From NCBI RefSeq assembly GCF_030247195.1, contig NC_080672.1:365296271-365360270 (forward strand): DNA of 64,000 nucleotides. Reading direction: 5' to 3'. Origin of the DNA: Topomyia yanbarensis. Its lineage: Eukaryota > Arthropoda > Insecta > Diptera > Culicidae. Below the pieces are notes generated by a model. That model saw only the letters and a list, made by a program, of their open reading frames with translations. It made no database searches and had not been told where the DNA came from. Positions within the stretch are counted from its first letter, which is position 1; each line of letters begins with the position of its first letter. Both the position numbers and the translations under genes were made by a program. This document shows positions 12,999 through 58,765 of the stretch, in pieces.

Positions 12999-15450
12999 TT
13001 CTATGTATCAAGGAGGTGTGACAGATAAAAATACACACCAGTTCACTCGAAGGTTCAAAACAATTTTCAATTTGTGTTGCTAGCGTAGTAAATAGACTCA
13101 CGTTATCGTCAATGCTAAATTCCCGAGCAGGTAAATTTTTGGATGCGGCCAAATTTTTGGGCTTGAGGACACAAGACCTAACATATAATATACGTTTGTT
13201 TTTAGTGTGCTGGATTGGACTTATCTAACTAGCATTAAGGTTAGTTGGTGTTAGTTTCTGACGAGGAGAGTCCGAAACACTACAAAAAACCATGCAGCTT
13301 TGTCATGATTTTCGTCATATCTATTTATATTATCGTGATATTTTATTCTTGACCTTCCCATCTAAATGTTTCACACTTAGTGTTGTGGCTTACATTCGTG
13401 ATTTTTAAAGCCTTATCGCGATGTTCAGTATTTTACGAGCTTTAATCTGATTCACGTAGTTCCTCCTTATCGCCTTACGGAGACATTTTGTCGCTGACTT
13501 GACCATTACACTTACACCCAAATCAGCACGCTCACATTCCCTGTTTTTACGCTCATAATCTCATGCCCAAAAGCAATGTTTTCTGATCATGGAGCTATTC
13601 GCGTACTGTTTAAGGTGTCATTACGACACACACTCGTTGAGTCGTAAAATAGTATATAGGTACAACTGTAATATTTATGATGAGTGTTATAATTTTGTTT
13701 GCCTCACCGCCGGTGGCATTTCAGCAGTATCATTGAGGTATTTTACTTTGTACCATTTTTCCACTGTTATTAAGATCCCGTTTGTGGTTTGTATGTGTTG
13801 GGAACTAAGCCTTACTAGAAAAACAACTGATTAGCATCAGAACTTGAACCGACAAACATCTACTGGTTGAAAACGTCACTACTCTCTAGGCCATATGCAT
13901 GATTACTAGCTCTTCGAATGAACTATATAAACTTCTCGTCATTGCAGCATCATTATTATCCAATTTATCTCTGACTTATGTAGCCAATAGCATGTTGCTA
14001 TGTAGTTCGATCTTGTATTCCAAAATTATGCGGTTGGTTGAACACTAACAGATAATTTGGGAGCTTTTCACGCACAGTCTGAGAGCAGAAAAAACAGATG
14101 CGTTTACGCTCCCTATGAATCCTTTTGGATGTAGTAACCGGACGACATGAACTGGTTTCAATTAGTTAGGTACCTATTGTGTTGTTTTTGTATGGTTTTG
14201 AGGGATTAAGGGTCTTTTAAATTTTTAAACTAATTCAAGTTTACTTTGTGTTTATTTGTCCAAACAATGAATATGAGACGGAAATACGCATTGTTTTGTC
14301 TGAGTGATTAGTGAACCTACTGATTTGGCATCTTTCTATATTCCGTCTTAGGCTGGCACAGATACAATGATGTTATATTTCTCCCAAACTCCACCCTCCC
14401 AAAAAATAGAAATGACTCCATGATGCTGAGGATCATTTTTGATCATCCTGCGCTATAGTCTACCTCTTCAATTATAGGGGCTCCTTAGCTCAGTAGTCCC
14501 CAGGGGCCCCGAGTGGTCTTAAGACGGCCCTAGAAAATACTCTTGCAGTACTACTTCAGCGGAACCCAAGATTAACTGTAATAACTTCTGTTCTACTGAT
14601 TATATTTATAATTGTTAGTGCTCAAATGAAAGATAGTATTCCCAGTTATAAGCCTTGCGTTGTAAACATATGGTGTGTAAACCAAAAGTTAGAGCCGCTT
14701 AGAAACGTGGTTATTTATCAATAATATGGGCATGAAGGGATTAAAGATACCATTGGAATTCTGAGCAAGAATCAATTGTTGAAGGGGATAGAGGCTGAAG
14801 AGCAATATGGCATCAAAGTCCACTGGAACTCAAAGCAGAATATTCATCAAAAATTTTCACTGGATTTTGTTGAATAAATCATAATCTTCAGCAGAATTCT
14901 ATCTTGATAAGGATTCCACCAGACCTCTATGAAGCTTTTCTCTAGAATCGTGCATCAAAATTCTATGGAAAAGCCGTACGAATACGGATAACGATTTAAT
15001 CGAAATTCTGAAATAGATTCCATTGGAATGCTAAGAAAACTTCGATCAGAATCCTGGAAAGTATACAAACAGAATCCTGAGAAGCATGTCATCATTATCC
15101 CAGAGTGCCAGAAACCAACCAAACAAAGTAGGTATAATGGTATTTTATGTGTCAAAATGTGTCAAAGGGAGTTTAAAACTAAAAAGTTTCATTTTTGGCA
15201 ATACTGCCGTCCAAACTTTGTATTTTTCTAGATTCTTTGAACTAATCCTTCAAAAATTATTTCGCTCATTAATTCTAGTTCAAACACTATCAGAGATATC
15301 ATCCGAAGAAAAACAATGTTTTATACAATTTGTTAAAATTATGAGTGTTCCCATGGACCGAGGGGTGGTTCAAACAATTTCTTACAAACTGGTTCTAATC
15401 CCTGAGGATCGATTCCAAGTTTTGATTTTTTTGGTCATTTTTCGCAGATT
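12999..15450. other. Unassigned region with degenerate GAATCCT/GAATTCT repeats
   Basis: No gene recognised. 13310-13370 contains a short match to the CATGATTTTCRTAATTT / ATCGTGATATTTT repeat of 20.9-21.2 kb. Between about 14740 and 15090, words such as GGAATTCTG, GAATCCT and AGAATCCTG recur every 20-40 bp, suggesting a decayed tandem repeat. A 122-codon ORF (15086-15454) overlaps the LINE tail and has no motif. Confidence 0.4.
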
Positions 15451-18996: not shown

Positions 18997-19172
18997 GCCG
19001 GTGTTAAGTCGCAAAATCTTAAAAATTGAGATAACGTTAGCACTGGATAAAGAATTTTATCGGCTACAATCGACTTTCGTAGGTTTTAAATATGTTGTAA
19101 TAAGCAAGAATTATGTCAAACCTTAACCTTATATGCAAGGCTACTTAGTCCGGCCTGACTTAACACCGACCA
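18997..19172. mobile_element. GGTCGGTGTTAAGTC-family MITE, copy 2 (internally deleted)
   Basis: The left end reads CCGGTGTTAAGTCGCAAAAT; the right end reads ACTTAGTCCGGCCTGACTTA then ACACCGACCA. Compared with copy 1 at 12742 it is inverted and about 80 bp shorter. The left terminal repeat has lost the AGACCGGACTAAGT section. The interior GCACTGGATAAAGAA block is kept. Confidence 0.8.
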
Positions 19173-24760: not shown

Positions 24761-25845
<1,085 letters not shown>

Positions 25846-26864
25846 TATTGAGAGAAAAATTAACTTTTAATATTCAACTGAAAACATCGCATAGTTGGCA
25901 GCACTGACGGCAAAAACAAAATAATATTTTTTATAGATTCCTCCAACAATTTTCTTCAAAAGCCATCTTGTGGTTTGATTCTAGGGTAAATAGAACCGGA
26001 GATATGATCAAAAGAAAATCAAGGGTTTTGGCAATTTGCCAAAACGGGGGGTGCTCCCATGCCTCGAGGGGTGGTTCAATTGTCTCGAAAATTTGGGTTT
26101 TTATATATTGGCCCTAGATGAACAATTCCTTTCAATTTGGTTCAAATCAGTGAAGGTCGATTACACGTGCCTTGATCACTTCGCATGGAATGACCCATAT
26201 TCATCTCAATTTTTCAAGCAATATCATCAAATTTAAATTAGAATACGATGGAAAAATGTGGTTCCAGGAAAAAAGTTGAAAGTATGCATTTTGTGTACAT
26301 TTTCAACTTCTTACGGTCTTTTAGTCATTTTCAGGTCATGCAAGTAGCATCAACAAACTTTTATAAATAAAAGACATGGATTTTTTTCTGGGCTCACCAT
26401 TCATATTTTTAATATTAGAGGTTATAAACATACGGAAAACAAACAGTTTGACGCAAAATTCGATAAAAAAAATTTCGTCTGTGGTTGCCATTTTCGGAGC
26501 CTTGACCATTTGAAGACCAAAATGTATGCCGAATTTCGATGACTTTGAGGTCGCTGTCAAGTGACAGATCATGTCAGATATTTTTAGTTGAACTGCAAGA
26601 TTTTCTCCGAAAAATAGTGGCAACCCTGGTTCAAGGTCCTAATGGTTTTCTTATATCTACTGCTCGTACCTATTACTGGTCGCTAGCAGCTGGACATTTC
26701 ATGAAACAATGCATGGAACAAAGATGAATTCACAAACAATACTCCAAATTTTGTGAAATGGTTCACGTTAAAATTTCACCACATGTTGCATGAAATTGAA
26801 ATTGATTAAGGACATCACCTGAATACCACAAGCACGCAAAATAGATCGTAAATTATCTAATAGG
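25846..26864. other. Unassigned sequence
   Basis: AT-rich. The words CCATGCCTCGAGGGGTGGTTC near 26057-26077 resemble CCATGGACCGAGGGGTGGTTC near 15351-15371, a short dispersed repeat. No gene recognised. Confidence 0.4.
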
Positions 26865-27280: not shown

Positions 27281-27954
27281 GAAAATCCTTTTGGTAATGA
27301 CATGGCGGAAACCGTAACCATTATTGAAAGGATATAGAACATAATTATTAAACATGATTTTTGTTCATGGTCCAGTTTTCGTAAAGCAAAAGCGTGATTG
27401 TTCCAGAATGCATGGCACTTTATTCACGATTTCGGAAACATTTTTTTCAGTGTAAGTTATCGTCAAGTCATATGAATCTGCAAACGAATTTAGATCCTGA
27501 TGTAAACATTGATTTTCTATTCCAACGCAATCTTTCTTGCTACTACCCAGCCCGAGAGACGTCGGCGCGGCGTCATTTCATTCAGTTCATTCAGTACCCC
27601 TTCACTCTTTCTCTTTTCTTGCCACCAACCATGTGATAACGTGTATTCTCAAACAAATCATCCGAATCAGTACTCACGTTCCCACTTGATGAGAAGCATC
27701 CATTCTGTTCTAAAAGCTAATCATCCAATCAGTCGAGACTAGAAAACATTCAAGTGGTCACTGAACGCCATTTAAATGGCGAGAGTCGCATTAACAGATT
27801 AATAATTTTTCGTTTGTGAATGCTTCATACTTCCTAAATCCAGTCCTGTCACCTAGCCAGAGTGATAAGATTCATTTCGCAGAACCGAAAATTACCGAAA
27901 AACCCCAAGCTGTGATACGGTGTTTGAGAACTCACACGCCGATTAAGAATTTGG
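27281..27954. other. Upstream region of the protease gene
   Basis: Contains a TCAGT-type initiator-like pair (TTCATTCAGTTCATTCAGTA, 27578-27597) about 360 bp before the first Met, and a 16-bp palindrome at 27766-27781. The true transcription start cannot be fixed from sequence alone. Confidence 0.4.
27766..27781. promoter_or_regulatory. 16-bp perfect palindrome CGCCATTTAAATGGCG
   Basis: Perfect dyad 190 bp upstream of the protease start, between the initiator-like sequence and the start codon. It could be a dimeric transcription factor site in the promoter or 5'UTR. No factor is assigned, and chance is possible. Confidence 0.3.
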
Positions 27955-29816
27955 GTGTTTGGATTCCACCACCGAAAATTCGGAACCAGTTGGATCGCGA
28001 TGCTCACTGCTTACGCACTGGTTTCAATCGTCCTACTGGTTAAATCGGCCCTCGCCGACCAAGGTTTCAGCTGTGAACCACTATTTTCTCCGATTCGGTG
28101 CGGAGTTCCAAAGTTACAACCGGACGCCCTACCATCGCAACCGTCCGAAGCAATCCGGGGTGAATTTCCGTGGCATGCTGCGTTGTATCAGGAGGCGGAT
28201 GGGAATTTTAGCTACAGCTGTGGAGGATCACTGATCAGCGAGCGGTTCGTGATTACGGCGGCACACTGTGTGATCAATCAGAACAATGGTTATCGGATTA
28301 CAGCGAAGCGGTTGAAGGTGCTGCTGGGTGGCCATGAACTGGGAGCGGAGGATAGGTGCGTGCAGGAGATGAAGGTTCGGGAAATTCACGTTCACGAGCA
28401 GTACCAGCTGGGGGACTATCGGCATGATATCGCGCTGGTGGAATTAACGGGACGGGTTGGTTTCACGCAGCGAGTTTTGCCGATTTGTGTGGATTTGAGC
28501 GAAAATGAGGATAATCATTTCTATAAACAGTACGGAAAGGTTGCCGGTTGGGGTTATACCGAGTACGATTCCGTTTCCAGTTGGTTAAGGATGACAGAAC
28601 TGCCGTTCGTTAACTACACTAGCTGCCTAGCGAGCAATCCGGCGGTGTTTTCTCAAACCATCTACGATGGGATGTTCTGCGCTGGTTATGCCAATGGGAC
28701 AAGTGTCTGCAATGGAGACTCGGGTGGGGGTCTGGTGTCTTTCAACCGGGACCACTGGGTCCTGCGAGGAATCGTTTCGTTTACTGCTCTTCGCGATAAT
28801 GAGAGGACGTTGTGCGATAGCGAAGAGTTTGCAGGGTTCACCAAAGTCCGATATTATCGGGGCTGGTTGAGCGGTATTCTCGATAGGAAGGACTTACCCG
28901 ATCGTTCCAAACTTCCACTAGCGAAGAAAAAGGTCGAAGAACCACCAGAGGAGGAGGATGAGGAGGATCAGGTACCTTGCGGTGAACGTAAAATCAACAA
29001 ACGGCAACTGATCGTGAACGGAGTTCGTAGCTATTCCGGCGAGTGGCCTTGGCATGTGGCAATATTTGAAGTGACCGGTCGCCAAAAAAGGTACATCTGT
29101 GGCGGAACGCTTATCAGCGATCAGTTTGTAATGACAGCAGCTCACTGTATGTTGGATGACGCTTTGAAACCGCGATCAGGAACCATAGTGGTGCAACTCG
29201 GACAGAACGACCTCTTCGAAAGCTCCGTCAATATGCGGGAGGTTCGAGTTGACAAGATCTCACCTCACAAACAGTTTGATCCTGTTAGTAAGACGCATGA
29301 CGTTGCATTGCTGGAACTCTCGTCGAATGTTGAGTTCAACGATTACATTCAACCGGCTTGTTTACCGAAGAAGCAGGACGGTAACGGATCGAATCTACTC
29401 GGGACGCTTGGGTCCATCATCGGTTGGGGATATGAGCAGCCATGGTCGTTTATGATCGCCAACACGCTGCAGTCCACTAGACTTCCCGTCGTCAATCAGT
29501 CGCTGTGTGTGGTTGGAGGGGATTTCGGTGCGGAAATGGATGGTGTTATCTGCGTTGGATCCGGCAATGGTAATCAGATTAAATTGGGTAATGCTTTGAG
29601 CTGTTTATGAACAATACATTCGTAGGGTCAAACGCGTGCACCGGAGACTCGGGAGGAGGAATGTTCTTCGAGGAAGACGGACTCTGGACAGTTAAAGGAG
29701 TAGTTTCTGCACTAGATACTGTTAATGGTTTTTGCAATCCCGAAGGCTACCTAAAGGTAGCTAGTACTGGTCATTTTTTGAAATGGATCAAACATGAGGT
29801 TGTAGCCAAAAAGTAG
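27955..29816 (+). CDS. Secreted double-domain serine protease (two S1 chymotrypsin-fold domains)
   Basis: Two exons, 27955-29569 and 29626-29816, give 601 residues. The first Met of the frame is at 27955, but Met16 (28000) starts a better signal peptide (MLTAYALVSIVLLVKSALA), so translation may begin there. Domain 1 spans ~68-308, with triad His104 (TAAHC), Asp158 (HDIAL) and Ser256 (GDSGGG). An acidic linker (PEEEDEED, ~331-338) leads to domain 2, ~353-600, with His397, Asp449 and Ser547. Both triads are complete, so both domains could be active. The S1 pocket base, six residues before each Ser, is Ser250 and Asn541 rather than Asp, so neither domain should have trypsin specificity. The activation sites are unusual: domain 1 begins AIRGEFPWH and domain 2 QLIVNG, without Arg or Lys directly before the new N-terminus. 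No CLIP domain is seen. Likely extracellular (haemolymph or gut); cascade role is inferred from the family. Confidence 0.93.
29570..29625 (+). other. 56-bp intron in the protease gene
   Basis: GTAATC at the 5' end and CATTCGTAG at the 3' end, phase 1. Removing it joins GSGNG to SNACTGDSGGG and restores the catalytic Ser of domain 2. Unspliced, the frame ends at a TGA (29608-29610) inside the intron. Confidence 0.93.
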
Positions 29817-31310: not shown

Positions 31311-31416
31311 TTAACCCATTCATGCCCATGTTGTTTGTGGACAACAACGTTTTTAAACAGCTATAACTTTTGAGTAAGGCAAAATTTGCTCACAAAAACA
31401 AGTAAGGCTAATAAAT

Positions 31417-33008
31417 AGGGTTCGTCGCGGTTGTGGTAATTACCGCAACCGCGCGGTATTTACCGCACCCGCACCGCAAAAACTGCGGTGCGGTGAGACA
31501 CTTTTTCCCGCGGTTGCGGTGCGGGAAATGAGCTTTTACCGCGCGGTATTACCGCAACCGCACTACAAAAAATAATTGATAAAGTCTGCAGTCTGCATTA
31601 AAAAGTGAATTAAAACTATGACTTTTACCATTTGAGAAGGACGCAACTAGATTTATTTTCTGAACGAATGCTTAGCAATGTCATTATTAGGAACATCTCT
31701 CTGTCACAACCTTCGAGTTTTTTATTACCCTACATTAGAGAAACATGATAAACATTAAATTGCTCTAATTTCCATAGGCTTGACAATGATTTGAAAAGAA
31801 ATCCGAATATAATCTGTATTCTCGACCTATCGCTACTTGATTTTTTATATTTTGGTCATTCAAATGTGATAAAACATATAATTTGACAGCATTATTTTTA
31901 AGACATATTTTGAAAACTATTTATTTTATACTTATACCTTTTCAAATACATAAAACGCAAAATCCAATCATTGAAAAACAATTGAATTTTACTGTCAAAT
32001 CCAATTACAAAATGCATCATTTCTCCTGATTCCTCTTGACAATCGTGGAATTATGAATCGTTTTCGATGACATTTTCTCAACTGTGAATTTTGATGAAGT
32101 AATGATACTACGACTTAAAAACAATCCAAAGAATGTAATTATCATCATCAAATCAAACGAATTTGGAGGAATTTTTTTTCGCGTGCCTCCTTTGTTCGTC
32201 CAACTGGGAATATTTTCTACCAAATTAACAAATAATATTTTTTAGTTAGGAGTATTTTGTAACTTTTGAAAGTAAAGCTTTCGAAGTTAGTGTAGGGCAT
32301 TGCGATTTTTTTGTTTTTCTCAAAGTCCCCCTCAAAGTCTTCCTTCATATTGTGACAAGTGTCAAAGTTAGCCCAGATGCCAAATTTTGCATAGTTTGGA
32401 TAGTTTTTGCCTTAATTGAAAATTTATGTCGAAACTTTAACGTAGGGGTTAGGTATTTTTACATAGAATCTGTACACAAAGTTTGAAAGAAATCGGCTAA
32501 ATAGTTTTTGAATGGCAGGTAACACCGCAAATCGTGTTTTTCCAGAGACGTTCTACAAAAAGCTTCGTCACCGAGTCGTTTGTCGATATTTTTGCATGGA
32601 AAAATTACAACATGTTATTGAAATGATACACTATAATGTACAAATGTTTTGATCAGTTCGCTTCACGCAAAGTTTAAAAAAAATCGAGAAAAAGTGTTTT
32701 TTTTACGCCAAAACCCCTCTTAATAAAACTTGCAAAGTTGAATAATTTTATAAATGTTACATTCTGTCAAAGATAATTTTCGTGTAAATAAGAATAACAT
32801 TTTACTATAAATAGCTCTACAAAATAAATGAATAATTTTTCAGCACAATTTTTAAAATGCATGATTTTTACCGCATTTACCGCATTACCGCGCGGTGCGG
32901 TGCGGTAAATGCAATGCGGTTCGGTAGGCGGTGCGGTTTTATTATTTTGCTGCGGTTGCGGTGCGGACTATCCATTTACCGCCCACATCCGCACCGCGAC
33001 GAACCCTA
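31417..33008. mobile_element. 1.6-kb element with AGGGTTCGTCGCGG ends and 9-bp target duplication
   Basis: Termini AGGGTTCGTCGCGGTTG and CCGCGACGAACCCTA are inverted and followed inward by dense ACCGC/GCGGT repeats on both sides. CTAATAAAT is duplicated at 31408-31416 and 33009-33017. The 62.3-kb copy of the host MITE shows a single CTAATAAAT at the same point, proving the insertion. The interior is AT-rich without a transposase. A part near 32610-32730 recurs inverted at ~57940-58080. A 9-bp duplication fits Mutator-like elements, but the superfamily is not proven. Confidence 0.85.
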
Positions 33009-33860
33009 CTAATAAATGTGACTATTGCCTTTTATTTGAGTATTAATAGTTTCAAGGACTAGCTCTAGAACTGAAGTTATTGCAATTAGTCTGATTGGAT
33101 TCCGATGGAGCAGTGCTGCCAGGAACAATAAGCCGTATGAATAAAAATGAGCATTTACTCAAGACAAGTTTGCTCTGCTCGATTCTGAGCAAAGTAAACT
33201 CTCGTAGCATTTGCTCAACTCGGTATGAATAAAAGCATACTTTGCTCATTTTAGACTGTAGCAAGTTCGAAATTCGAACTTAGCTTTTACTCCGTCATTC
33301 ATCTGTCAAAAATCGCGGTTACTCAAAGTAGAAATAAAATTCTGGTTGTTGTAAAGGTAAATAAAAATATTCCAACTAATATTTAATAATTTTAATGTGA
33401 TAAAAAACATCTATTCTACGCAGGGGTGGGCCAGCTCAAGGTTAAAACATCCGGTTGTAGTGAATTGAGAGTGGTTTAGAAATATGATGAATATGGGTGC
33501 AGGAACAGATGTGCCGAGTTTCTCTTGTTAGCCAGTAACCTGATTGCGAGGGCCCCTGGCTAAAGTTGTGAAGTGCTGGAGAGTTTAAAAGCAACAGCTT
33601 GCATTAGGTGGACAGTTATTCCTGCTTGCTGGCTCCGCTAAATTTTGCCTTCACCTTATAATGGTCCCATCCATACTGATTTGCTCTCACGTAATCAATT
33701 TATGTAATCGTTGTATTTGTTGACGCGGTATACAAAACAACTGTATGCTAAATAACGTTATGCCAACTGACATGACACCCTGAAGGTCCATACCATCACA
33801 AAAACACAACGAAATTCTGGTTTTCCAACCAACGTTGAATAAAAATGGCACCGGTACGTA

Positions 33861-34179
33861 GGGTGATGAGCCTATTTTCACCTTACTAAGCAAGGCGCCT
33901 CACTAATTCGGTAATTTCTTGCCTCACAATCAATGGAATGCGTGAAAATTGACATCAACCGCTTTGCTTCGTTGTTAAGAACCAATATAAAATCACAAAT
34001 GCGTTGAAAACAGTAAAATTCTCGTGCTTGAGCACAATGAAAACTCCAATCGAGTGCCCCTATTGTTGCGCTACCATTTGACTCAATGCGTTGAACAAAG
34101 ATGGCAGACACTGCTCTAACCAACGGCTTCAAATGAGTAGGCTGATAATAGAAACATGGCGCAAATAGGCTCATCACCC
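33861..34179. mobile_element. 319-bp MITE, ends GGGTGATGAGCCTATTT, TA target
   Basis: Inverted ends GGGTGATGAGCCTATTT and AAATAGGCTCATCACCC, flanked by TA on both sides (33859-33860, 34180-34181). Fits a Tc1/mariner-type MITE. A 99-codon reverse ORF lies within it and is incidental. Confidence 0.85.
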
Positions 34180-34732
34180 TATTTGGATCAACTCTTTTAA
34201 TCTAACCAACTAACTGACTTAACTCTTATTACAGGTTACAAAGAAGTGTAAGAAGATGTAAGTGTTGAGGTAACTGACGTTCTATGTACGTGCTAGTTCA
34301 AACAGTTGAATGAGGATCAGCTACTATGCTGAAACGAGCTGTTTACAACTTCGAAGATGCTCATCATGTGGCCGCTTCAATTAGTCTGTAAAATAACCTT
34401 TTCTAAGCTATTTCCAAAAACTTCCCCGACGGGACTATACATGAAACCGGTCAAACCACTCGGAAATCGGTTCGGAATCCTTAATTAATGCCAGCTCAAA
34501 TCGATTCCAAAACCTGGAATTCAGCATTCCAAACCGTTTTTCGAATTGTTCAACCAGCATACTGTTGTCATATTCACCACCGGTTGAACCTATAGCTCTA
34601 GATAAACAACGTGCATGTAATTATATCTCATTAAGTTTGCTTGCACATAGAATTTTAAAATATTTCTTCCCTACTTGCTTCTAGATGGAGTGTGCATAGA
34701 CAGCAGTAACCTTATTCTACCCTTTGCTCTCT

Positions 34733-35470
34733 TAGAGCGCCCATTAACTTGTCACTTTGCCGTGCTAACTTTCATATGGGATTTTCGATTGATTGACACC
34801 GGTGTAGTGGAGTGCACTGGAACTGCACTATTTTTGCACTTTCTAGCAGAAGTGCAGAAAACTGGGTATGTTCCATTGACACTTCTGCTAGGAAGTGCAA
34901 AACCAGTGCACTCCACTTTACCTAGGGTTGCCACCTCTGGAGAGGCTTTGACCCGGTGATTTTCACTGACCTGGGGGGGGGGGATGGATTTTGAGTGGAA
35001 CTAGACGAAAGCGATTGCTCGGCATTTTAGAGCTTAAGCTGTAAATTTCAACGTTTAAGAACGGTTTTATCGGTTTAATCTGGTCGGTTGTAACATATAG
35101 CGAAATATTACTTTTCTTACTTGATAGTAAATTTGATTTGTTTTTCATTTTCATTGCTTTGTGAAAGAAGTCAGCAATATTTGGTGAACTCATCTTTGCC
35201 ACCTTAAAATCAAGGGTTAGTCGGACAAAATAAATCTGAACCAGAGTAATAGTTAACTTAGACTTTTTAAATATTTTGTAAAGAATCAGTTAATTCCATA
35301 AAAAATGAAATTATGCTTCTTCCCACCAAACCCGGAGAAATTGATGTAAAATCCGTAGGCCCGGAGGTTGCTCCCGAAAACCGGAGTCTCCGGGTCAAAC
35401 CAGGAGGGGTGGCAACCCTAACTACACCGGTGCACATCAATCGAAAATCTCAATAGTAATGAGCGCTCTA
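34733..35470. mobile_element. Palindromic MITE (TAGAGCGC ends), interrupted
   Basis: Left arm TAGAGCGCCCATTA, ATTTTCGATTGAT and CACCGGTGTAGTGGAGTGCACTGG pairs with a right arm containing ACTACACCGGTG, ATCAATCGAAAAT and TAATGAGCGCTCTA. The right arm is cut by the insertion at 34925-35418. Without it the element is ~0.24 kb and folds into a nested hairpin with a second palindrome (CAGAAGTGCAGAA/TTGACACTTCTGC). Confidence 0.75.
34925..35418. mobile_element. 494-bp MITE, ends GGGTTGCCACC, TA target
   Basis: Inverted ends GGGTTGCCACCTCTGGAG and the complement of GGGTTGCCACCCCTCCTGG, both followed by a TTTGACCCGG match. TA lies at 34923-34924 and 35419-35420. It sits within the right arm of the palindromic MITE. 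A G-homopolymer (34973-34982) lies near its left end. Confidence 0.85.
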
Positions 35471-36197
35471 CGAGAACGAAAGACGCAAAGAAAACGGTAC
35501 AACTAGCTACAATCCTAAGCTAGTCTTCTGTATCCACTGGCGAAACTGAGTTAGGCTCTAATCCCAACTGCTGTCAAGATGTATGAACTGGCCAAACTAG
35601 CAGCGGTTGAGGATAGAACTTGATACATTTTAAGGGCCAAACAAAAAACGACACAAAATTGCTATTTCTTGCATTTTGGGTTTTATCATATGTGTGATTT
35701 TAATAGTAAGTTTAAACATATATGTAAAAATAGCTTTTATGTTAACTGTAGATAACTTTTCGGACACCAGTCCGATGCCCTTGAAACAATTACTACATGT
35801 GATATCAAACGTTACCGGATTGGCAGAAATTTCTGTGTATTAAAGATATGCTGCCGGCTCCAGCTATGATTTCATGATTTTCTCAAGACCAATTACTGAA
35901 ATGGCGACTGGACGTGGAAAACATACAATTACGCTCAATGCAAAGAGAACCCATCGTTTGTTATCCCTACCAAATTTCCACCGTATTCCGAGTGTTTTCA
36001 CCTATTATTACTGCAAAACTAGATTTGATTGACTGCATTCGAACATAATTTATTTCTTCGAAATTGTAGATATTCTTTTTTATCCTGTTTAAAATAATAA
36101 AATGTCACCAATAATAAATTATTTATGCTATATCTCAATCTAAAAACTTTCACAGACATTTCACTTAAAATATATGGCATTCCTGTAATGAGATGCG
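35471..36197. other. Interior of the 6.6-kb element
   Basis: AT-rich, with no ORF or repeat recognised. Confidence 0.4.
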
Positions 36198-36244
36198 GTT
36201 TGATGTAGAGCCCTCTAGTTAGAGTGTGGCCAAGAGGCCATGAA

Positions 36245-36393
36245 TAGAGCACTCTAGTTAGAGTGCGGCCAAGACGCGTTTGACGTATCCAAACGAGCAG
36301 AAATCTGACGTATTTCTATTGTGTATACGTCAAATTTCATGTTTGTTTGGATAGGTCATGGCGTCTTGGCCACACTCTAACTAGAGTGCTCTA
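36245..36393. mobile_element. hAT-like MITE B, a second copy of A inserted into A
   Basis: TAGAGCACTCTAGTTAGAGTG at the left and its complement at the right, ~149 bp. GCCATGA(A) at 36237-36244 and GCCATGA(C) at 36394-36401 form a 7/8 match duplication. So a relative jumped into MITE A close to its end. Confidence 0.82.
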
Positions 36394-36407
36394 GCCATGA
36401 CGTATTG

Positions 36408-36575
36408 CCCAGTAAAGCTCAGCCGGAATTGAACTGGAATTCTGGATGGTTCCAGTTCGTACACGGGCTCCAGTGACACAACCGATTCTAACTAGAATCG
36501 ATTGTGTCACTGGAGCCGGAATACGAACTGGAACCAGCCAGAATTCCGGTTCATTTCCGGCTGAGCTTAACTGGG
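36408..36575. mobile_element. 168-bp MITE C (CCCAGTAAAGCTCAGCCGG), inserted into A
   Basis: Near-perfect palindrome with ends CCCAGTAAAGCTCAGCCGG / CCGGCTGAGCTTAACTGGG, and centre CCGATTCTAACTAGAATCG. It splits a CGTAT-CCAAACG sequence of MITE A. Another copy is at 38625-39022. Confidence 0.88.
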
Positions 36576-36778
36576 TCCAAACGAACATGAAATTTGACGT
36601 ATTTCTATTATGTATACGTCAAATTCCATGTTCGTTTCGATACGTCATGGCCTCTTGGCCACACTCTAACTAGAGTGCTCTAGTTTGATGCGGTTTCACG
36701 CTTTATCGGCATAACGACGCTGAATCCCTCTGGATAAAGACTCGACACGTCAATCGTTCGTTTACCATTTATCTGACA

Positions 36779-36893
36779 GTGTCATTCCAATCGTGCACGA
36801 GACCTGTCAATGGCCCTAGTTCCAGAAGGATTCGAAGCGATTTTTATCGGATTGATTGCTTCTGACAGGTCTCGCGCTCGATTGGAATGACAC
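36779..36893. mobile_element. 115-bp hairpin MITE (GTGTCATTCCAATCG)
   Basis: Left GTGTCATTCCAATCGTGCAC, GAGACCTGTCA; right TGACAGGTCTCGCGCTCG, ATTGGAATGACAC. The stem is ~30 bp with a ~55-nt loop. No clear target duplication. Confidence 0.75.
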
Positions 36894-38361
36894 AATAATA
36901 ACGAATACAGGTAACTACATCCGATCAACTGGAATGCAGGAATAAAAATCGCACTGAAAATTAAAACTGATTGGAACATACACCACGTCCTGGTTGTCAT
37001 GGTGATCACCAGTTGGTCATTGATCCTCTTGATCCTTTAACTAGCTCTATTTACCTGCTCAGTACTTGGGACGATACGCGAATGTTGTGGATGTGTTTTA
37101 GATAGCGCATCCGGTACCGAGGATAACATAAACAGTGATTTTTATCTGTGTAGTACTATATTGAATGTATATGGGAGACGCAAAAGGAGCCCAATTTATT
37201 CTGGATATATGGCGATAGTCCTGCATATCGAACGCTACGCGACATCTGGAGATAACGTGCCATGAATTCCTGAATTTCACGTACTGCAGCTATCTCGAGC
37301 TAAGACCTTGAGCAATTTTTAATGTACGTGTTTTAAGAATAGGGTAAATAGCCTATATTGGTCCCGTTAGGCAGAGCACTGCACTATTTTTTTGTTTCAA
37401 TTGTGCATTTTTTTAGATTTGGGTTATTTACCCTCTGTATTCGATCAAAACATTCTAAACATTTGTGCTGTTGTCAGGAATAGAACCCAGGGGAGCAGCG
37501 TACAAGGTAATCAGCTTATGTACAACGAAACACCTGTCCGCAATTTGAAAAACCATTCACCTCTTTTTGTTTCGGATCAGTTTCGAAACGGCACAGTGAT
37601 AATAGCATCAGTGATTCGCTGGAAAAAGGGACAGTCTACGTGAAACAGAATGCTGAATATATGGACCGATTTGTTAATCCAAATATGACCAACCTAGTTA
37701 AACTTTAGAGAGAAATATGCGGTGACGCCATCTTGAACCAGCGGGACTGCAATATTCTTCAGCCAGCCGAGCCAATCTACTTTTTTTAGATTTTAACGAT
37801 GGATTAAAAGGTTGCCATTTTTTCTGCATTTTTCTCCGCACATCTCTCCCTGAAGGATAGCTAGACCAACCTACATGGTGGATTTTTTGTTAACGAATAA
37901 AAACGATACGAATAAAGTTCCTGCTCACAGGCCTTATAGGCATATTTTTTACAAAAGATTGCCTCTAAGGCCTATTGGCTTAGATTGGCGATCACGCTTT
38001 TGGAACTGCTTATCCATCATCTCCCAGTGGATAAACGTATGCATCGGAAGGTGGCCAACAGAGTGGCGGCGACAATTTGAGGACGCGAGAACCTGCTTAC
38101 AGTAAATTAAATAAAGCCTGTCAGAGTAAAAGAAGGTAATTCACGCCGATTCGCTGGGCTTTTACTTTACCATCGTTCAAGCAGGTTTCGTATCTTGGCG
38201 TTAGTACTAGCTAGGCTTCTTGCCATCACTCTGTTTGTAGCCAAAGACTGTTTTACACAAGTTATCTCTTGCCAAATATTTTACTAACGTGTTTTCTCTG
38301 TTTCGCAAACTTTACATGATAACGGTAAAAAGCTGGCTTTGCGCTTTCAATCGGAACATAA
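36894..38361. other. Interior of the 6.6-kb element
   Basis: No gene seen. GGGTAAATAGCC at ~37343 and GGTTATTTACCC at ~37422 could be the ends of another small TA-type MITE, but the inverted match is short. ORFs of 76-83 codons here have no motif. Confidence 0.4.
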
Positions 38362-38363
38362 TA

Positions 38364-38538
38364 GGTTTGTTCCAGTACATGGAAGTTACTCCCTGTTGCT
38401 CCGGAGCAAAAAATTTTTGCTCCTTTTCACTCCGGTTTGCCACCAGACGAAGAAAAAAGAGAAGAAGATAGTACAGGAACGATTTTCTCCCTGTTTGCTC
38501 CGGAGTACTTCCAGTTTCTCCTGGTACTGGAACAAACC
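38364..38538. mobile_element. 175-bp MITE, ends GGTTTGTTCCAGTAC, TA target
   Basis: Inverted ends GGTTTGTTCCAGTAC and GTACTGGAACAAACC, TA flanks at 38362-38363 and 38539-38540. Inside, CTCCGGAG occurs twice, adding to the hairpin. ORFs on both strands in it are incidental. Confidence 0.85.
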
Positions 38539-38624
38539 TAATTATTTCCGACAGAATGATAAAGTTCCTCTGCACTATTAGTATTGCATAAAAATCGTGT
38601 TTTTGCATATCAGTCAGACACAAA

Positions 38625-39022
38625 CCCAGTAAAGTTCAGGCGGAAATGAGTCAGAATTCTGGTTGGTTCTAGTTAGTATTCCTGGACGGAAATTGGAATC
38701 GGTTGTCACTGGCAGTGACGTATCCAGGGAGAGGGTCTTGGAAGTCCGCCCCCCCCCCCCCAAAAAATGTTCATCATCTTGAGAATTTTTAAAAAAGTTT
38801 CTTTTTTAAATTCATTCTAAGTTCAAAATCTTTGCAAATCAGATTCGATTACCAAAACTGAGTTTAATTAAATGAAGGTATTACATATTACGTATTGTAC
38901 AATGGACATTTTAAAGTCGAAATTTTGGATCCCCTCCAAAGAAATTTTCTAGATCCGCTCCTGGTCACTGGAGCCGGAATGGGAATTAGAACTAGCCAGC
39001 ATTCCGGCTGAAGTTTACTGGG
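38625..39022. mobile_element. CCCAGTAAA-family MITE, second copy, interrupted
   Basis: Ends CCCAGTAAAGTTCAGGCGG and CCGGCTGAAGTTTACTGGG. The outer parts match MITE C at 36408; the middle is an inserted hAT-like element at 38713-38963. Removing it and one GTCACTGG restores a GTCACTGGAGCCGGAAT sequence like that in MITE C. Confidence 0.85.
38713..38963. mobile_element. 251-bp hAT-like MITE with 8-bp duplication GTCACTGG
   Basis: GTCACTGG at 38705-38712 and 38964-38971. Termini CAGTGACGTATCCAG and CTAGATCCGCTCCTG are imperfect inverted repeats of the CAGnGnCGnATCnAG type common in hAT elements. A C-homopolymer of about 12 lies near 38750. Confidence 0.88.
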
Positions 39023-40050
39023 AAGATGAACAAAGGGTTGTGTTTGAACAGTGATTTTTCATTTTATGCGTAAGCCATTTTGGTTATATTCATGTTTCCT
39101 CCTATGCCTCGAACCTGTTTCTCACAACAGTTACATTTATAAGACATTTCCTTCTCCATCCATATAGGGAATCGACAAATTGTTGGAAATTTAATTTTTT
39201 TTATAAAACAATTCGCTTATCCGGCGAATATTCCCTTCATAGGGAACAATTGCGAATTCTGTTCGAACGAAACAACTATAGAAGTACTATTTACTGTTAT
39301 CAGCTACAAAAAAAGCAATCTGTTTTAAAGTGATACATAAAATAAAAATACTAAATATTTACCTCTTGGTATATTTTGTTGGCTCCTGATTGTTTTATTT
39401 GTGTTTTGTACCTGTTCAGGTCCGATTTAGATGACAAATAGAAACTTTTAAAACTAGATTGCTTTTTTAAAAACATAGAATTAAAAACTTTAGCATGCAA
39501 CCGAGCATGCTCAACATTTACAACCTTTTGCTTAACTTTTGCTGAGCATTTGCTCACGATTTATACTTTTAATCATACGGAATCAGATGTTCGAAAAACA
39601 AACACTCAAATTGAGAAAGCAACTGTCAAAGCAAAGTTTTATTCATACCAACTTGAGTAAATGCTCAACGCAGCTGCTCGACTGCTAGAATCTCAAGAAG
39701 CTGAGCAAATGCTAGTTTTTATTCATACGGCTTAATATATACGTTGACGATGGAAAATGATTTTTTCATATATCTTCGTTATGGTGCAAAATTATTGAAA
39801 AATTATTAAACTTATCAATTTAGACTGTCGTTGGCTACATTTTCCACGTATTTGTACTATTGTAATTATTCTAGGAGAATTGTAATGAGCATTAGAAGGT
39901 AAAAATTGACCAGCTCCTAGCACTGCCATGGAAGCACCTATCTTTATGCAAAAAAGGCTTTTCGTGTTTCTTGACCCCACCGTTCTCAAGGAAAAATAGT
40001 TTTGAAACCATACATGTATAAGAAAAAAAAGTTGGGCATGAAAGGGTTAA

Positions 40051-45633: not shown

Positions 45634-47528
45634 ACTTAAATGTATTGTATTGTATATTGTCTTCGACTAAAAATATTACATCGCACAGACTAAATAACTA
45701 TAATCTAACTATAAACTATTTTTAATTTGAATGATTCTTTGCTTATACCTCAAATCAAAGAGATGATAAACATTGTTGAAAAGCAGGCAGCGAACATCTA
45801 GCGGATTATTCTGGCCGTATAGCGTGCGGTGTGTTGAACGCCGGAAAAAAATCATTTCTCCGGAAAGACCTTCCCGGAACGTTGAAATCAAGCTTTGCTA
45901 GCAGCGCAGGGGAATCTATGTTGTCAGCAAGCAAGTCGAAGATGAAGAGTCGTTGCAGAAAAATTCGCCTATTTCGCAGCGTAGGGAGATTGATGAGAGC
46001 GCAGCGATCTTCGTGTGGAGGTAGCCGTAATCGATTTTGCCAGGGCAGCCGACGAAGGGCAAACCTCATGAAATTCTTCTGTACCCGTTCGAGACGATTA
46101 ATGTGGACGATGTGATACGGGACCCAAATGGTAACTCCGTATTCCAGAACACTGCGTACCAGTGCGATGTATAGAGATTTAAGACAGTAAACATCATTGA
46201 AATCACGAGTGTTGCGCTTGATGAGTCCGAGTACAGCTATGACAGAAGAAACATGTGCGGTGAACCGGTGAATAAGTGACATTTAAGTCGAGAGTGACAC
46301 CTAGATCTTTGACTGATGCGACTCGTTGTACAGGAGCAGAACACATCAGGTATTCGAAAACAATGGGCGATCGAACTCGTGCGAAAGTAATTATGCTGCA
46401 TTTCTGAATGTTCACACTCATGCCGTTTCTCTCACACCAATCCATAACCCTTTCGAGGTCCATAGTTGTTATAACACGATACATTTTCAAATCATCTGCA
46501 AACATGACTTTAGATGACGACAATTCACTCCCGAGGTCGTTCACGAAGAGTACAAAAAGAAGAGGTCCAAGATGACTTCCATGAGGAACGCCCGATGTAA
46601 TATGGAATGGATCTGAGAGTGTAGTTCCAAGTCGCACAGAAGCACTGCGATTTGAAAGGTACGATGAGATCCAATTTGTCAGCCAGTCCGGAAATCCATT
46701 GCGCCTTAGTTTTTCTACATCAAGTTGATGAGGAACACGATCGAAAGCTTTCGAAAAATCAACATACACCGCATCGATCTGTTGTCGTTTTTCCATCTTG
46801 TCAACGATGGACGACGACACATAGCTCATGAGGTTAGTAGTTGTAGAGCGTTTTCTCACAAAATTATGCTGATCGGAACTGATGATGTGTTTTACGGCGG
46901 GATAGATAACATCTAACAACATGCTCTCGAAGATTTTTGGGAGGCAGCTTAGAATTGAAATCCCTCTGTAATTTGTGACATCATGTACATTACCGGTTTT
47001 GTTGATAGGGCTAATCACAGCCTCTTTCCACTTAGTGGAACTATTTTCAGCGAGAGAACGATTAAAAAGTATAGATGCCGGTAGAGCCACCGATGAAGAG
47101 CATTCCTTGGTTGAAGTCCGTCCGACCCCGGTCCTTTCGAACTATCAATACCGCGTAGCTTGATATATACCTCTTGTTCGGAGAATGATGTTGCAGGCAA
47201 ATTCAACGTGAACATCGGCAAACTACTCAAGTATGATTCAGACAAAGGTGGTGAGTTATTACTTAGCACGTTTTGAAAGAATGACGAGAATAGATTTGCT
47301 GATTCTGCAGCTGTCGTAGATGTCCTGTCTCGATAGTTGACGCTTGCAGGGATTCCTCCGGAAGACGTTTTGTTCCGCAGATAAGACCAAAATTGCTTAG
47401 GCTCATCCTTCATGCTGCACTCAATGATGAAAAGTTTTAAATATAGATCAGCTAAAGATTTGTTTCTAATATCATTCGTATTTGGCTGCTTGGTGCGAAC
47501 GTAGGGCTGTACAATACCGAGAAAGGAA
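45634..47528 (-). pseudogene. 5'-truncated Jockey-like LINE with nearly intact reverse transcriptase
   Basis: The reverse strand carries a pre-RT region (47590-47090, FWSYLRNKTSSGGIP, KGPGSDG), then after a frameshift near 47090 the RT palm (47090-46203) with YVDFSKAFDRVPH, GVPHGSHLGPLLF and the catalytic FADDLKMY. After a second frameshift near 46250 the thumb/C-terminal part ends at 45806 (VRSVLEYGVTIWVPYH, RFALRRLPW). A 3'UTR and a TACAATACAATAC tail end near 45640. The three RT catalytic Asp are present. The endonuclease domain and the 5' end are missing, and two frameshifts break it. The 5' edge abuts the MITE at 47531. Confidence 0.92.
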
Positions 47529-47530
47529 TA

Positions 47531-47922
47531 CAGTGAAGACCCGTTTTTATCAGCCCCTTGATGAATTTTGGGCTGATAAAATGGGGACATTGATAAAATC
47601 GGGACATATATTTTTCTCTCTTTTTAAGAAATATTCTTCTTTCGTCCCTAGATATAGCCTCATAACCTTTTCTGAAAATTTAGCTTAAACTTCCCTTAAG
47701 GGGGTCTGACAGCGAAAAATTAAAAAATTTTTTTTGCATATTTTGGATCTCTAAAGTAAGAAAAATGTGCTCAAGAAAGGATTTACTCGATTTCGACTTG
47801 ATTCGTCTGCTAGAGCCCATCAAACTACCAACTATCAATTTTCGTATGAAGCTGATAAAATCGGGGATAGATAAAATCGGTGGCTGATAAAACCGGGTGC
47901 TGATAAAATCGGGTCTTCACTA
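47531..47922. mobile_element. 392-bp MITE, ends CAGTGAAGACCCG, TA target, copy 1
   Basis: Left CAGTGAAGACCCGTTTTTAT, CAGC; right complement TAGTGAAGACCCGATTTTAT, CAGC. TA at 47529-47530 and 47923-47924. GCTGATAAAA-type words repeat at the right end. The CAGTG start and TA target fit a pogo/Tc1-type MITE. Related copies: 48895-49080 and 62240-62810. Confidence 0.88.
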
Positions 47923-53695: not shown

Positions 53696-53930
53696 TTCCA
53701 TATCAACTTTTGAATAGGGCTAATAAGATTTGTAAACAAACTTTTGTTTTGCTAATTTCTCTTATTTTGTTATAATTTCAACACAGAAAACATTTGAAAT
53801 TGATTCTACCAAGGGTAAAGATGTTGATTCATGTGTATTTGTCATGAAATTCAACTCGGCTGCGGAGTAATGAGCGAAAGAAGTTTGTTTACAAAAATCT
53901 CATTAGCCCTTTTGAAGAATTAATATTGAT
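53696..53930 (+). mobile_element. ~235-bp MITE (TTTGTAAACAAACTT family), copy 1
   Basis: Ends TAGGGCTAATAAGATTTGTA, AACAAACTT and inverted AAGTTTGTTTACAAAAATC, TCATTAGCCC. Copy 2 at 56694-56927 is in the same orientation and nearly identical. A fragment is at 6725. Target duplication not clear. Confidence 0.85.
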
Positions 53931-55047
53931 TTATATTTCACCCCCTAGCAAAGTTGCCACATTTACAGATTTTTCTGTCATATTTCAGATTTAATTAATC
54001 GTTTTTGGATATGTTTCTTTTCCACAGATGAAGGATTTTTGCACGTTTTTGAAAGATTTCACAGGTTTTATAAGAATTTCTATATTTGTACCTATTTCTA
54101 TGGATTGTCCCACGTACATTTATAGATATTTTTTTTTATTTTAACTATCACAGACGATAAAAGATTCTTTCGTTTTGAATACCGATTACAAAATGGCATC
54201 CCTGCCCCATATATACATCAGTTAATCATCTCAACGAGAGTGCTTCTGTTCTGTTTGTTTTGACAAGCGGATAAGGAAAATTCAGAAAAAATAATCTGGA
54301 TGTGAACATCATTTTGATCCAGATTACGTTTATCCTACGGGTACTGAACAAGCTGATGAAACACTAAATCGAAACGGGAATTGGTACTGGACATATCACG
54401 TGAGTACTGCGATGTTTATTTACATTCGATTAATGTCTAACATACGTTTCCATTCCTTTATAGGAAACCAATATCCGCGAGGAGTTATGGCCTATGTGCC
54501 CTAACCTTAGGTCTCTTTGATGACATTAACGGTCAGGATACGACATGGAGGTAACCGCAAAGATAAACTCAAGATTACTAGGTCTCAAACAAACCATTAA
54601 CGAAAGATGGATCAGTAACCGTGAACCAGTGAACTCAGTAATAGTAAGCATTAGCTACCCCCTCGTTAATAGGCGTCGATGTTTTTTAGAATGCGTCGAC
54701 AAAATGCTATGGTTACGAATCAAATCAAAGTTGTAAACAATCTTGTTATGAAACAAACATGTTGTCCAAATCGACGAGTGAAACATTGTTCAACTACGTT
54801 TACTACTAAATGCCTATTTCTGGAACACTGATGACCAGAATTATTGATATGAGCTCGTCCGTTTCCTACAGTTAGTATCCTGATCAGGTGAATCTCGTAA
54901 GAATTAAGAATAAAAAAATTCGTACAGCTCATATCCACTTGATTCTTCTGCAAAATCTAATACAAAGGCTTCGGTAAATCTAATACAAAGGTACTTCGTT
55001 GCAGAATTTGACGTAATATATCAGTCAGTAGACTAGTTTATTAGTTA
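53931..55047. other. Unassigned AT-rich sequence
   Basis: 53950-54060 repeats CAGATTTTTCTG/CAGATTTAA words like those at 25.3 kb. A 63-codon ORF at 54545-54736 has no motif. No gene seen. Confidence 0.4.
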
Positions 55048-55055
55048 CTTATTAA

Positions 55056-58000
55056 CAGGGCAGGAAATATTCGAACCGAACCTATGTTCGAATACTTTCA
55101 AAGCGCGAAGCTTTGCGTTACTGGTTCGTATTCACAAGCTTCGCATCACAATCGCTTACCATCGTAATTGCGGACATTTGGGCGATACTTTTGCATGCTC
55201 TTCGGCGAGGACAAATGAAGCTTCTTGTTCATTTCATTGATGTTCGGAAAGATATGTAAAAGCTTTTGCGTAGTTTTCGACGAACACGAGCTAAGCTCTT
55301 GGTTCGTGTGATCGATATTTTTGAAACAGTTACACGGAGCTTCTAAGCGATGTTCGCGAACACAGAAAAAAGATTACGTCGAAGTATTTCAGAATCGCGA
55401 ACACCAAAGGATTATATCAATTTAGCATCGCGAGGGCCATCGCTAACATGTTCGCCGGACGATATTAGTTTTCTTTATTCAAATACCTACCTACTAGTTA
55501 TGCAAAAAAAAAGTATATTCTAGACAGAGGCCTTGTATTAAGGGTGGAATAGGTGAAAAATAATTGTGACAATGTGTAGCTTATGGATGCTGGGGTTAAC
55601 TGAAAAGTGACGTAACAAGTTTATTTAAGATACCCTACTGATATATTACCAGTAGGAATAAAATCAAGATTTCGTGACAGGGCGGGGATAAATTTTCAAA
55701 TGAAATAAATTAGGGCTAGAAATGAAGTTAAACACAATGTACACAACGTATTGAGTGGCTCGCTTATCTTAGTCATGTTCCTATGTCAGTTTCTTGAGGA
55801 TCCAGTTATGTCAGTTTCTTGAGGATAAAGATATCGATATCCATTCAAAGGAAAAAATCGATTATCAGTTAAATAAATAACGTCATGATGTGTATGATGA
55901 ATCCTAGAAATAAATAGGGAATGTCAATAAACTCGACCATTCCCGATTCATATTTGGCAGCTCTGGTCGTTTTGTAAATCTTGTTTTCGACTAACAGTAA
56001 AACCATTTTGATTCAGAAGTATGTTTTAGAAGGGCGCATGTTTTTTCGTGCACTTATTTAAAAAAAACGCTTTGAATCCATCTACCAGTGTGATGAGACA
56101 TTTTTATAACTGTTTTCGAATATTATATCGGTTGAGAACTTTTAGAGCATGATATTTCGAGAAATTTTGAAAGTGACATTAAATCAGTTGTAAAGTTATA
56201 GAAAATAGCCTTTTAAAATGAACGGACAATCGAATTATTACTAATACTTTATGAATACATTATCTAAGTTCTTCATTCAATGCAATATGTATGCAAAAAG
56301 TTAAAAACTGGATTTCCCTTGAGAACTGGGCCAAAAAATCGAAAAAAATGTGTTGGCGATCCGAGAACTAGAATAGAAATTGTAACCCTTGGACCTCTGA
56401 AGTGCATGCGTACAAAATGCTATAGTCTAATGTTTGTTTTCATTCATTTCATTTAATAATTTTCAGTTGAGCAATTCTGTCGCAAACTGCATTGTGGAGC
56501 GAGGGTCATAACTTCCTAAATTTAAGTGTTCCTATTAATTTAGTACACTCTCTTTAACATAAACTACTCTAACGAATGAACGAATGGGAGTAGGTTCGAT
56601 AAATTTTGAAAGAAGCCGTTAAATCAACCACTTAAGGGATTACACCACCGCAAAATTAAAAAAAATCGAAATTGATCTTGATTGATTTTATTATTCCATA
56701 TCAACATTTGAATAGGGCTAATAAGATTTGTGAACAAACTTTTGTTTTGCTGATTTCTCTTAATTTGTTATCATTTCAACACAGAAAACGTTTGAAATCG
56801 ATTCTACCAAGGGCAAAGATGTTGATTCATGTGTATTTTTCATAAAATTCAACTCTGTAGCGGAAAAATGAGCGAAATAAGTTTGTTTACAAAAGTCTCA
56901 TTAGCCCTTTTGAAGAATTACTATTGTATTGATCTTAAATATGGGTCTTCAAAATAATATATCAAAATATGGAATGCGACAAAAAGCGAATAATAATGGA
57001 AAGACAGTATTCGAAAAAGTTCGAGTTTAGATCGACTTTCATTCTACTTGGAGTTATTTATTTCGCTTCTCATTTTCCGAGATTTCCCTTACATAAAGCA
57101 TTTCGGCTATAACTGATTCAAAAAAAAAAATACAGGGGGCCCTAAAGATTTCTTTCTTTTATTTTTTATTAGTAAAAGTCAAATAAAGGAAAATTACATC
57201 ATGGAGAAGATAAACCAAATTTTGTCCTTTTCAGAATTGTTTTTGGATTTCTAACAAAAAAAAAAATCACTAGAACATTGTTTGTAAGTTCTTTGCGTTT
57301 CTCCATCATTAATTAGTTAACAAATACAATACAAACAAGTTGGAATATCCTTCTCATTATTTATCACAAAACACATGTACAGGAGTCAGGAAAAAAAATT
57401 TCATAAAAGTGGAACATGTAATAAGTTTGACACTTCATTTATTAAGTGAACAGATTCTGTCGAAAATGTTTGAAAATAAATATTTTCTCTCTTGTGATTA
57501 GGTAATCAACCAATAAACTTATAAAACAATATTATAAAAATCATTTGGAAGCTTTCCTCTTGGTTTGGTACAGATGCCAAGAAATTATAATTCAATTAAT
57601 GACAATAATAATGGATTCAAGTATGTAGGTATTTGTTAATAAATTCATTTGGTAAAATTAAAAATAACGTTTAACACACAAATCATCGCATATTATTGAG
57701 TGAATATGACTAGCCGATTTAGGAATGTTGCGCAAGAACGTTAGAAACTGCAACAAGTTGAAAACAAAGGCCAACGGACTACGCCTAACTACCCCTCAGT
57801 GGATGCAAATAACTGAAGTTCGCCGTCTAACTGAACTCGGACGTCAGCAGTGAGATTCCATCCGAAAATTGTTCTTTTTAGGAAGAATTTGTTTTAGATA
57901 GGGAGATTATTAAGAGAGGGGTAATGGTTTTTAGCGTTAAAAAACACTATTTGCGATTTTTTTAGAAATTTGGGCGAAGCGAATTGATCAAAACTTTTGT

Positions 58001-58765
58001 ACATTATAATGTATCATTTCATCCAAAAGAGTCATTTCACCAAAAAACATTTTTTCACGCTGAAACCCTTACCCCCTTAAACATACTTTATACATCTTCA
58101 CCTAAACTCCTTGGCAGGGAAAATATACTCTGATTGAAGAAGAAAAGACGAGTTTGCAATCAAAGTAGCTAGTAAACATAATTGTATTCCGAAAAAAAGA
58201 ATTTGAATTTCACTACCACTACGCTCATTCAAACTCGTGGCTCATAAATTGGTAAGGTATGCGACGCACCTAATCCCTAAATCCTAAATTATAATCTTAA
58301 AATAATCCATTTTATTTATACTCAAAATAAGATTTACAGTTTATGATTTTAAGACAGATAGTCACGTAGCGAACATGTTCGCGGTGGCCTCATGATGCTG
58401 ATGCTTGAAGCGATATAAAACTTCGATGTTCGCGATTCTCAAATAAACGAGGCATTCGCTTTATATGTGTTCACCGAATATCGCTTCGAAACTCTGTGGA
58501 AATGTTCCAAAAACGCAAAAACCACGAGCCAAGAGCTTACCTCGTGTTCGACGATGTGTGCTTCTAAGGTTAATGTGAACTTTTTCGAACATTGTAAAGA
58601 GCGAACTAGATGCGAAGCTCGCTTCGTCCGAGCAGACATAAGTTTTACCCCTAAATGTTCGCAGCGATTGTGTCAAACTCATCGATTGCATGTGGTATGC
58701 TTGAGAAGGTGCTTCGTGAAGCTTCGAACAGCAATCAATTCATTTTTCGAAATTTTCCTGCCCTG
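55056..58765. mobile_element. 3.7-kb hAT-like element with perfect 8-bp duplication
   Basis: CTTATTAA at 55048-55055 and 58766-58773 flanks termini CAGGGCAGGAAA and TTTCCTGCCCTG. Subterminal arms of about 400 bp (55056-55470 and ~58360-58765) are inverted relatives full of TTCG, GAAGCTTCG and GTTCGCGAAC words, for example GCGAACATGTTCGC at 58367. The interior is AT-rich, shows no transposase, and contains the second TTTGTAAACAAACTT MITE and a piece shared with the 31.4-33.0 kb element. A non-autonomous hAT element is the best fit: 8-bp duplication, CAGGG ends and subterminal repeats. The ORFs in the right arm (58.44-58.79 kb) are not considered genes. Confidence 0.88.
56694..56927 (+). mobile_element. 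~235-bp MITE (TTTGTAAACAAACTT family), copy 2, nested in hAT element
   Basis: Same ends and interior as copy 1 at 53696, differing by scattered substitutions and short indels. Lying inside the 3.7-kb element, it arrived after that element or was carried by it. Confidence 0.85.

Follow-up and report, generated by a model that had tools for sequence, protein, structure and literature searches.

Two kinds of miniature inverted-repeat transposable elements (MITEs) offer the closest parallels to the locus described here. Those flanked by TTAA, such as Wuneng and the coral CMITEs, are attributed to piggyBac transposases; they have a TTAA target-site duplication (TSD) and a short terminal inverted repeat (TIR) starting CCC, as at our locus. 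MITEs of the hAT type have 8-bp TSDs and short TIRs, as do five of the elements studied here; an 8-bp TSD with certain end motifs is the hallmark of hAT transposons. That transposons nest, and that such nests yield a relative chronology, is already established; the study PMC2517846 reportedly uses interruption analysis. In this report, we describe a nest of DNA transposons at 31315-40046 in a 64,000-nucleotide stretch of the Topomyia yanbarensis genome (assembly GCF_030247195.1, contig NC_080672.1, positions 365,296,271 to 365,360,270), hereafter called the window. Topomyia is a mosquito genus of the tribe Sabethini. We conclude with high confidence that the nest was built by independent cut-and-paste insertions of DNA transposons, stacked one upon another in T. 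yanbarensis or a very near mosquito.

The nest holds 13 elements with 11 terminal-repeat types (none is assigned a strand), and its maximum depth is four. In the history that we propose, a 524-bp piggyBac-type MITE would first have inserted at a TTAA. A 1.6-kb hAT-type element (31416-33008) and a 6.6-kb TIR element (33130-39733) would later have inserted into this MITE. The 6.6-kb element would then have received six smaller TIR elements (one of which, at 36779-36893, is unproven as an insertion), and three of the six would in turn have become hosts to four more elements between them, including one that belongs to its host's own family. Mobilisation would have been by transposases acting in trans. 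A preliminary description of this DNA had outlined the same architecture: an outer TTAA-flanked MITE split by a 1.6-kb and a 6.6-kb element, the latter carrying MITEs at 33.86, 34.73, 36.21, 36.78, 38.36 and 38.63 kb. All of these parts were located and the coordinates proved accurate; the ends, the TSDs, the alignment to a sibling copy and the shuffle controls agree that the nest is real. Further inserts were likewise found in three of the six MITEs, at 34.73 kb (one), 36.21 kb (two) and 38.63 kb (one). The claimed depth of four stands, and it is attained in each of these three hosts rather than at a single place.

The outer, level-1 MITE lies in three pieces (31315-31415, 33017-33129 and 39737-40046), has the TIR CCCWTTCATGCCCA, and is flanked by TTAA at 31311-31314 and 40047-40050. 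Its left end at 31315, CCCATTCATGCCCA, and its right inverted end at 40046, CCCTTTCATGCCCA, match at 13 of 14 positions. A passage of PMC2872659 gives the hallmarks of piggyBac as TIRs of 12-19 bp with a CC[C/T]T motif and TTAA TSDs. The right end of the MITE begins CCCT, whereas its left end reads CCCA rather than the CCCT of piggyBac TTAA MITEs; the piggyBac-type label, drawn from the TSD and these terminal motifs, is a putative one. Ends of the TTAACCCWTTCATGCCCA type next to TTAA, at no more than three mismatches, occur at five sites in the 64 kb, where 0.12 would be expected; no shuffle of 100 had as many as five. Two of these sites are the ends of the outer MITE, two are those of an uninterrupted sibling on the minus strand (62282-62766), and the remaining site is an end of a third relative (14542-14747, minus strand), which is partial and more diverged.

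The sibling provides a test of the outer structure. It lies about 22 kb from the nest, is 477 bp long with TTAA at each side, and aligns to all three outer pieces (434/477 identical). The preliminary description had named, as a finding that would overturn it, outer pieces that never lie contiguous elsewhere; in the sibling they are contiguous, in the same order and orientation. In the alignment, 47 gap columns mark about 47 bp that the sibling lacks, spanning the point at which the 6.6-kb element entered. Loss of this stretch from the sibling is the likeliest account, ahead of its arrival with the 6.6-kb insertion, because the relative at 14.5 kb retains a recognisable counterpart of it. The outer MITE had been given a length of 0.48 kb, a figure that we reject: its pieces total 524 bp, and 477 bp is the length of the sibling, which lacks the stretch seen at 14.5 kb.

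The 1.6-kb element (31416-33008, level 2, 1.59 kb) has a perfect 16/16 TIR, TAGGGTTCGTCGCGGT, and a perfect 8/8 TSD, CTAATAAA. At the corresponding site, the sibling shows one CTAATAAA; therefore, the empty site of this element is seen directly. No transposase domain was detected in its five open reading frames (ORFs) scanned against Pfam, as expected if the element is non-autonomous. A 98-bp segment within it (32619-32716) recurs inverted at 57926-58021 with 84.7% identity; no matching TIR was found at 58 kb.

The smaller elements lie within the 6.6-kb element, and removal of inserts from their hosts served as an internal empty-site test. The foldback MITE at 34733-35470 (level 3), with ends (TA)GAGCGCYCATTA, measures about 232 bp without its insert, a 498-bp level-4 hAT-type element (34923-35420; TIR TAGGGTTGCCACC, 13/13; TSD ACTTTACC/ACTACACC, 6/8). 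Once this insert is removed, the host refolds as one continuous hairpin. A palindrome at approximately 34805-34918 was considered as a level-5 element and rejected, as it is continuous with the outer arms after the same removal. The foldback hAT-type MITE at 36206-36682 (level 3; TIR TAGAGCMCTCTAGTTAGAGTG..., 37/38; TSD GTTTGATG, 8/8) carries both of its level-4 inserts in its left arm. One is a 149-bp copy of the host's own family (36245-36393; TSD GCCATGAA/GCCATGAC, 7/8). The other is a 168-bp foldback CCCAGTAAAG MITE (36408-36575), at whose site the nested copy and the host's right arm retain GACGTATCCAAACGA / GACGTATCGAAACGA. Trimmed of both inserts to about 152 bp, the host forms one hairpin and aligns to its nested copy with 131/149 positions identical.

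A second CCCAGTAAAG MITE lies at 38625-39022 (level 3; TIR 19/21). Trimmed to 139 bp, this CCCAG copy and the 168-bp one at 36.4 kb align with 109/139 identical positions and 29 gap columns. Its insert is a 251-bp level-4 hAT-type MITE (38713-38963) with ends CAGTGACGTATCCAG... / CAGGAGCGGATCTAG... and an 8/8 TSD, GTCACTGG, at 38705-38712 and 38964-38971; these ends and this TSD were placed by eye, the automatic search having given no solution. Two level-3 MITEs are uninterrupted: a 319-bp element at 33861-34179 (TIR GGGTGATGAGCCTATTT, 17/17) and a 177-bp element at 38363-38539 (TIR AGGTTTGTTCCAGTAC, 16/16), with a TSD of AAT, or of TA if the ends are shifted by 1. The 115-bp foldback at 36779-36893 has the TIR GTGTCATTCC and 31-nt arms that are 94% complementary; because it is without a TSD, it is unproven as an insertion and is treated as a level-3 candidate. 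Only 2-bp TSDs were found for 33861-34179 (TA), 34733-35470 (the TA dinucleotide) and 38625-39022 (at most AA). The five elements starting at 31416, 34923, 36206, 36245 and 38713, by contrast, have the 8-bp TSDs given above; they are provisionally called hAT-type on TSD length and end motifs. As a separate observation, a possible degenerate 94-bp element lies at 37341-37434 (AGGGTAAATAGCCT and an inverted copy at two mismatches), for which the end search gave no solution; its left end is similar to the left end of the 33.86-kb MITE, from which it differs at four positions of 19.

Chance pairing accounts poorly for these structures. As controls, we made 100 dinucleotide shuffles of an 8.95-kb region. 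TIRs of 30 nt with up to three mismatches gave 27 overlapping pairs, from two loci, in the real sequence and none in any shuffle; for 16-nt TIRs, there were 146 overlapping real pairs against a shuffle mean of 0.48 (maximum 5). Pairs of 13-nt TIRs flanked by an 8-bp TSD numbered three, against a mean of 0.01 (maximum 1), and with a stricter seed two, against none in the 100 shuffles. When any 4-bp direct repeat was accepted (any matching 4-mer, not TTAA specifically), six real pairs stood against a mean of 0.26 (maximum 2). The elements at 34923 and 38713 fail the TIR-plus-8-bp-TSD test, the former through two TSD mismatches and the latter through imperfect ends.

As far as can be seen, all elements of the nest are non-autonomous. 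Of the 58 ORFs of at least 50 amino acids that overlap it, 20 were scanned against Pfam (14 wholly or partly in the backbone of the 6.6-kb element, five in the 1.6-kb element and one in the 498-bp element). There was no transposase among these 20, only weak and unrelated matches below the curated cut-offs. In particular, no hAT transposase was found in the ORFs scanned. A search of the whole window with Rfam at gathering scores returned no hits.

Several observations weigh against a history of independent, stacked insertions. Neither the end search nor the flanks revealed a clear TSD at 36408-36575 or 36779-36893. The TSD of the 6.6-kb element is ambiguous (AAT at 33130/39733, or TA at 33131/39732), and its insertion site is missing in the 62-kb sibling, so that its empty site is not directly visible. 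Further, the two sides of the outer MITE differ in their identity to the sibling: the left pieces (31315-31415 and 33017-33098) match at 178/186 positions, the right piece (39740-40050) at 271/306. This difference (Fisher p 0.008 in a post hoc test) is not expected of a simple split. Any of three circumstances would account for it: gene conversion, chimaerism of the sibling, or recombination in the outer element. Finally, at the search settings used, a second copy was present in the window for only three of the 11 terminal types, so the mobility of the other eight families is argued from their structure.

Some of the inner inverted repeats could be plain palindromes rather than insertions, a view that we consider unlikely. 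The candidate at 36779-36893, with no TSD, and the MITE at 34733-35470, with only TA, would suit it. However, pairs of 16-nt TIRs are rare in the shuffles, which counts against palindromes arising by chance (though not against those of other origin), and the hAT-type elements bear 8-bp TSDs.

The second alternative concerns the 6.6-kb element. Its ends, AAGCCGTATGAATAAAAA..., match in inverted orientation at 29 of 32 positions, and it measures 4,363 bp (4.36 kb) when the six inserts are taken out. Conceivably, these ends belong to separate copies of one family that were joined by recombination, which would make the outer MITE a chimaera of two copies. The unequal identity of the left and right outer pieces, a TSD of only 2-3 bp, and the lack of a transposase (DDE/D) in the 14 scanned ORFs that fall wholly or partly in the backbone are all compatible with such an event. 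Yet gene conversion or a chimaeric sibling accounts equally well for the identity difference, and the outer pieces are arranged and oriented as they are in the sibling. The ends, moreover, are joined in their inverted match by further subterminal inverted matches, and AAT or TA flanks both. On this balance, we judge recombination improbable and retain a single inserted element at 33130-39733.

The affinities of this element were considered with Tc1/mariner- and PIF-type transposons in mind, and it was filed under neither. Its ends also have looser copies of the terminal motif, and the subterminal repeats are built on the motif GTATGAATAAAA. The terminal sequence recurs, unpaired, at five sites elsewhere in the window at 3-4 mismatches, a count that comes without a chance expectation. 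Of three scans of viral contigs, two gave no hits and one gave two contigs with a single 18-base match each. In blastn comparisons of the ends with those contigs, the matches spanned 18-19 bases there, and elsewhere none was longer than 21 bases; we took them as chance.

We also weighed a bolder proposal, namely that the 6.6-kb element is one of a group of large, non-autonomous transposons of mosquitoes that has yet to be described, and that foldback MITEs are preferred landing sites, with nests growing preferentially from palindromes. Foldback MITEs received 4 of the 10 level-3 and level-4 insertions and make up 1,134 bp of a 5,497-bp target, which does not support them as hot spots (binomial P 0.13); the test is a rough one that counts 36779-36893 as an insertion and allots equal time to all targets. 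For plant long-terminal-repeat elements, a passage of PMC6911290 describes same-family "autoinsertions" and a weak preference for palindromes that was not significant for the nested subset. We regard the proposal as quite improbable. That all or some of the nest travels as a single composite, for example as a 6.6-kb element with MITE cargo, is very improbable indeed: the outer ends are intact, so a trans-acting transposase could in theory mobilise everything between them, but no second copy of any inner combination was found within the window.

Under serial insertion, the order of events can be read for nested pairs, as the preliminary description had claimed; the relative clock that it drew from this for at least eight families is weak. 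Nesting fixes 26 of the 78 pairwise orders among the 13 elements (with 36779-36893 counted as an insertion), and elements lying side by side in one host are mutually unordered. The sibling pairs have identities of 434/477 at level 1 and of 131/149 and 109/139 at levels 3/4; these do not follow the nesting, since divergence is greatest in an inner pair. Such values are divergences within families, not ages of insertions; they do not contradict the nesting order, and they do not support a clock.

Comparison with broader surveys places the nest in proportion. According to a passage of PMC3014933, nested insertions encode relative ages, and the TinT method reconstructs the order of activity from their frequencies; its human example comprises 2,268 nested Alu insertions, whereas we have one nest with 12 nested elements. 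In a 600-kb survey of the blow fly Calliphora vicina, as given in part of PMC3630058, 11 of 322 repeats (3.4%) were nested in others. Here 12 of the 13 elements sit within another, but this nest was chosen because it is nested, and the two rates are not comparable. MITE Tracker, by its own definition of nested, is credited in an excerpt of PMC6171319 with 20 nested among 17,651 rice MITEs. Among the open-licence literature matches listed, from searches that did not include Sabethini as a term, neither this nest nor any transposon of Topomyia was reported, and none of four papers that name T. yanbarensis has a title on transposons. The nest is well preserved but ordinary in kind for a transposon-rich genome, and a single nest settles no open question. 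It does offer a clean worked example of a mosquito genome stretch built by serial DNA-transposon insertion, and the catalogue of its parts, with the empty sites, could be the starting point for a Topomyia repeat library and an interruption matrix.

The window holds other repeats and a protease reading frame. To its left, a 560-amino-acid protease ORF (27928-29607) ends approximately 1.7 kb away; across 95% of its length it shares 99% identity with the T. yanbarensis "transmembrane protease serine 9-like" (TMPRSS9-like) protein, and its next match, from Malaya genurostris, is at 79%, which points to T. yanbarensis or a very close species as the source. On the minus strand at 45806-47623, broken reverse-transcriptase frames with an RVT_1 match in 46206-47141 (E 5e-29) are probably a decayed retroelement. 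A candidate 1.9-kb TIR element occupies 2424-4356, with 13-nt ends and an 8-bp TSD (at most one mismatch in each); long inverted arms there (2337-2624 / 4156-4443) are 80% identical. Two related short inverted-repeat elements, at 12739-13000 and 19005-19172, possibly represent another MITE family. The window also contains an (AT) dinucleotide array of 111 units at 25627-25848 and a 243-bp direct repeat of 91% identity at 53696-53937 and 56694-56936.

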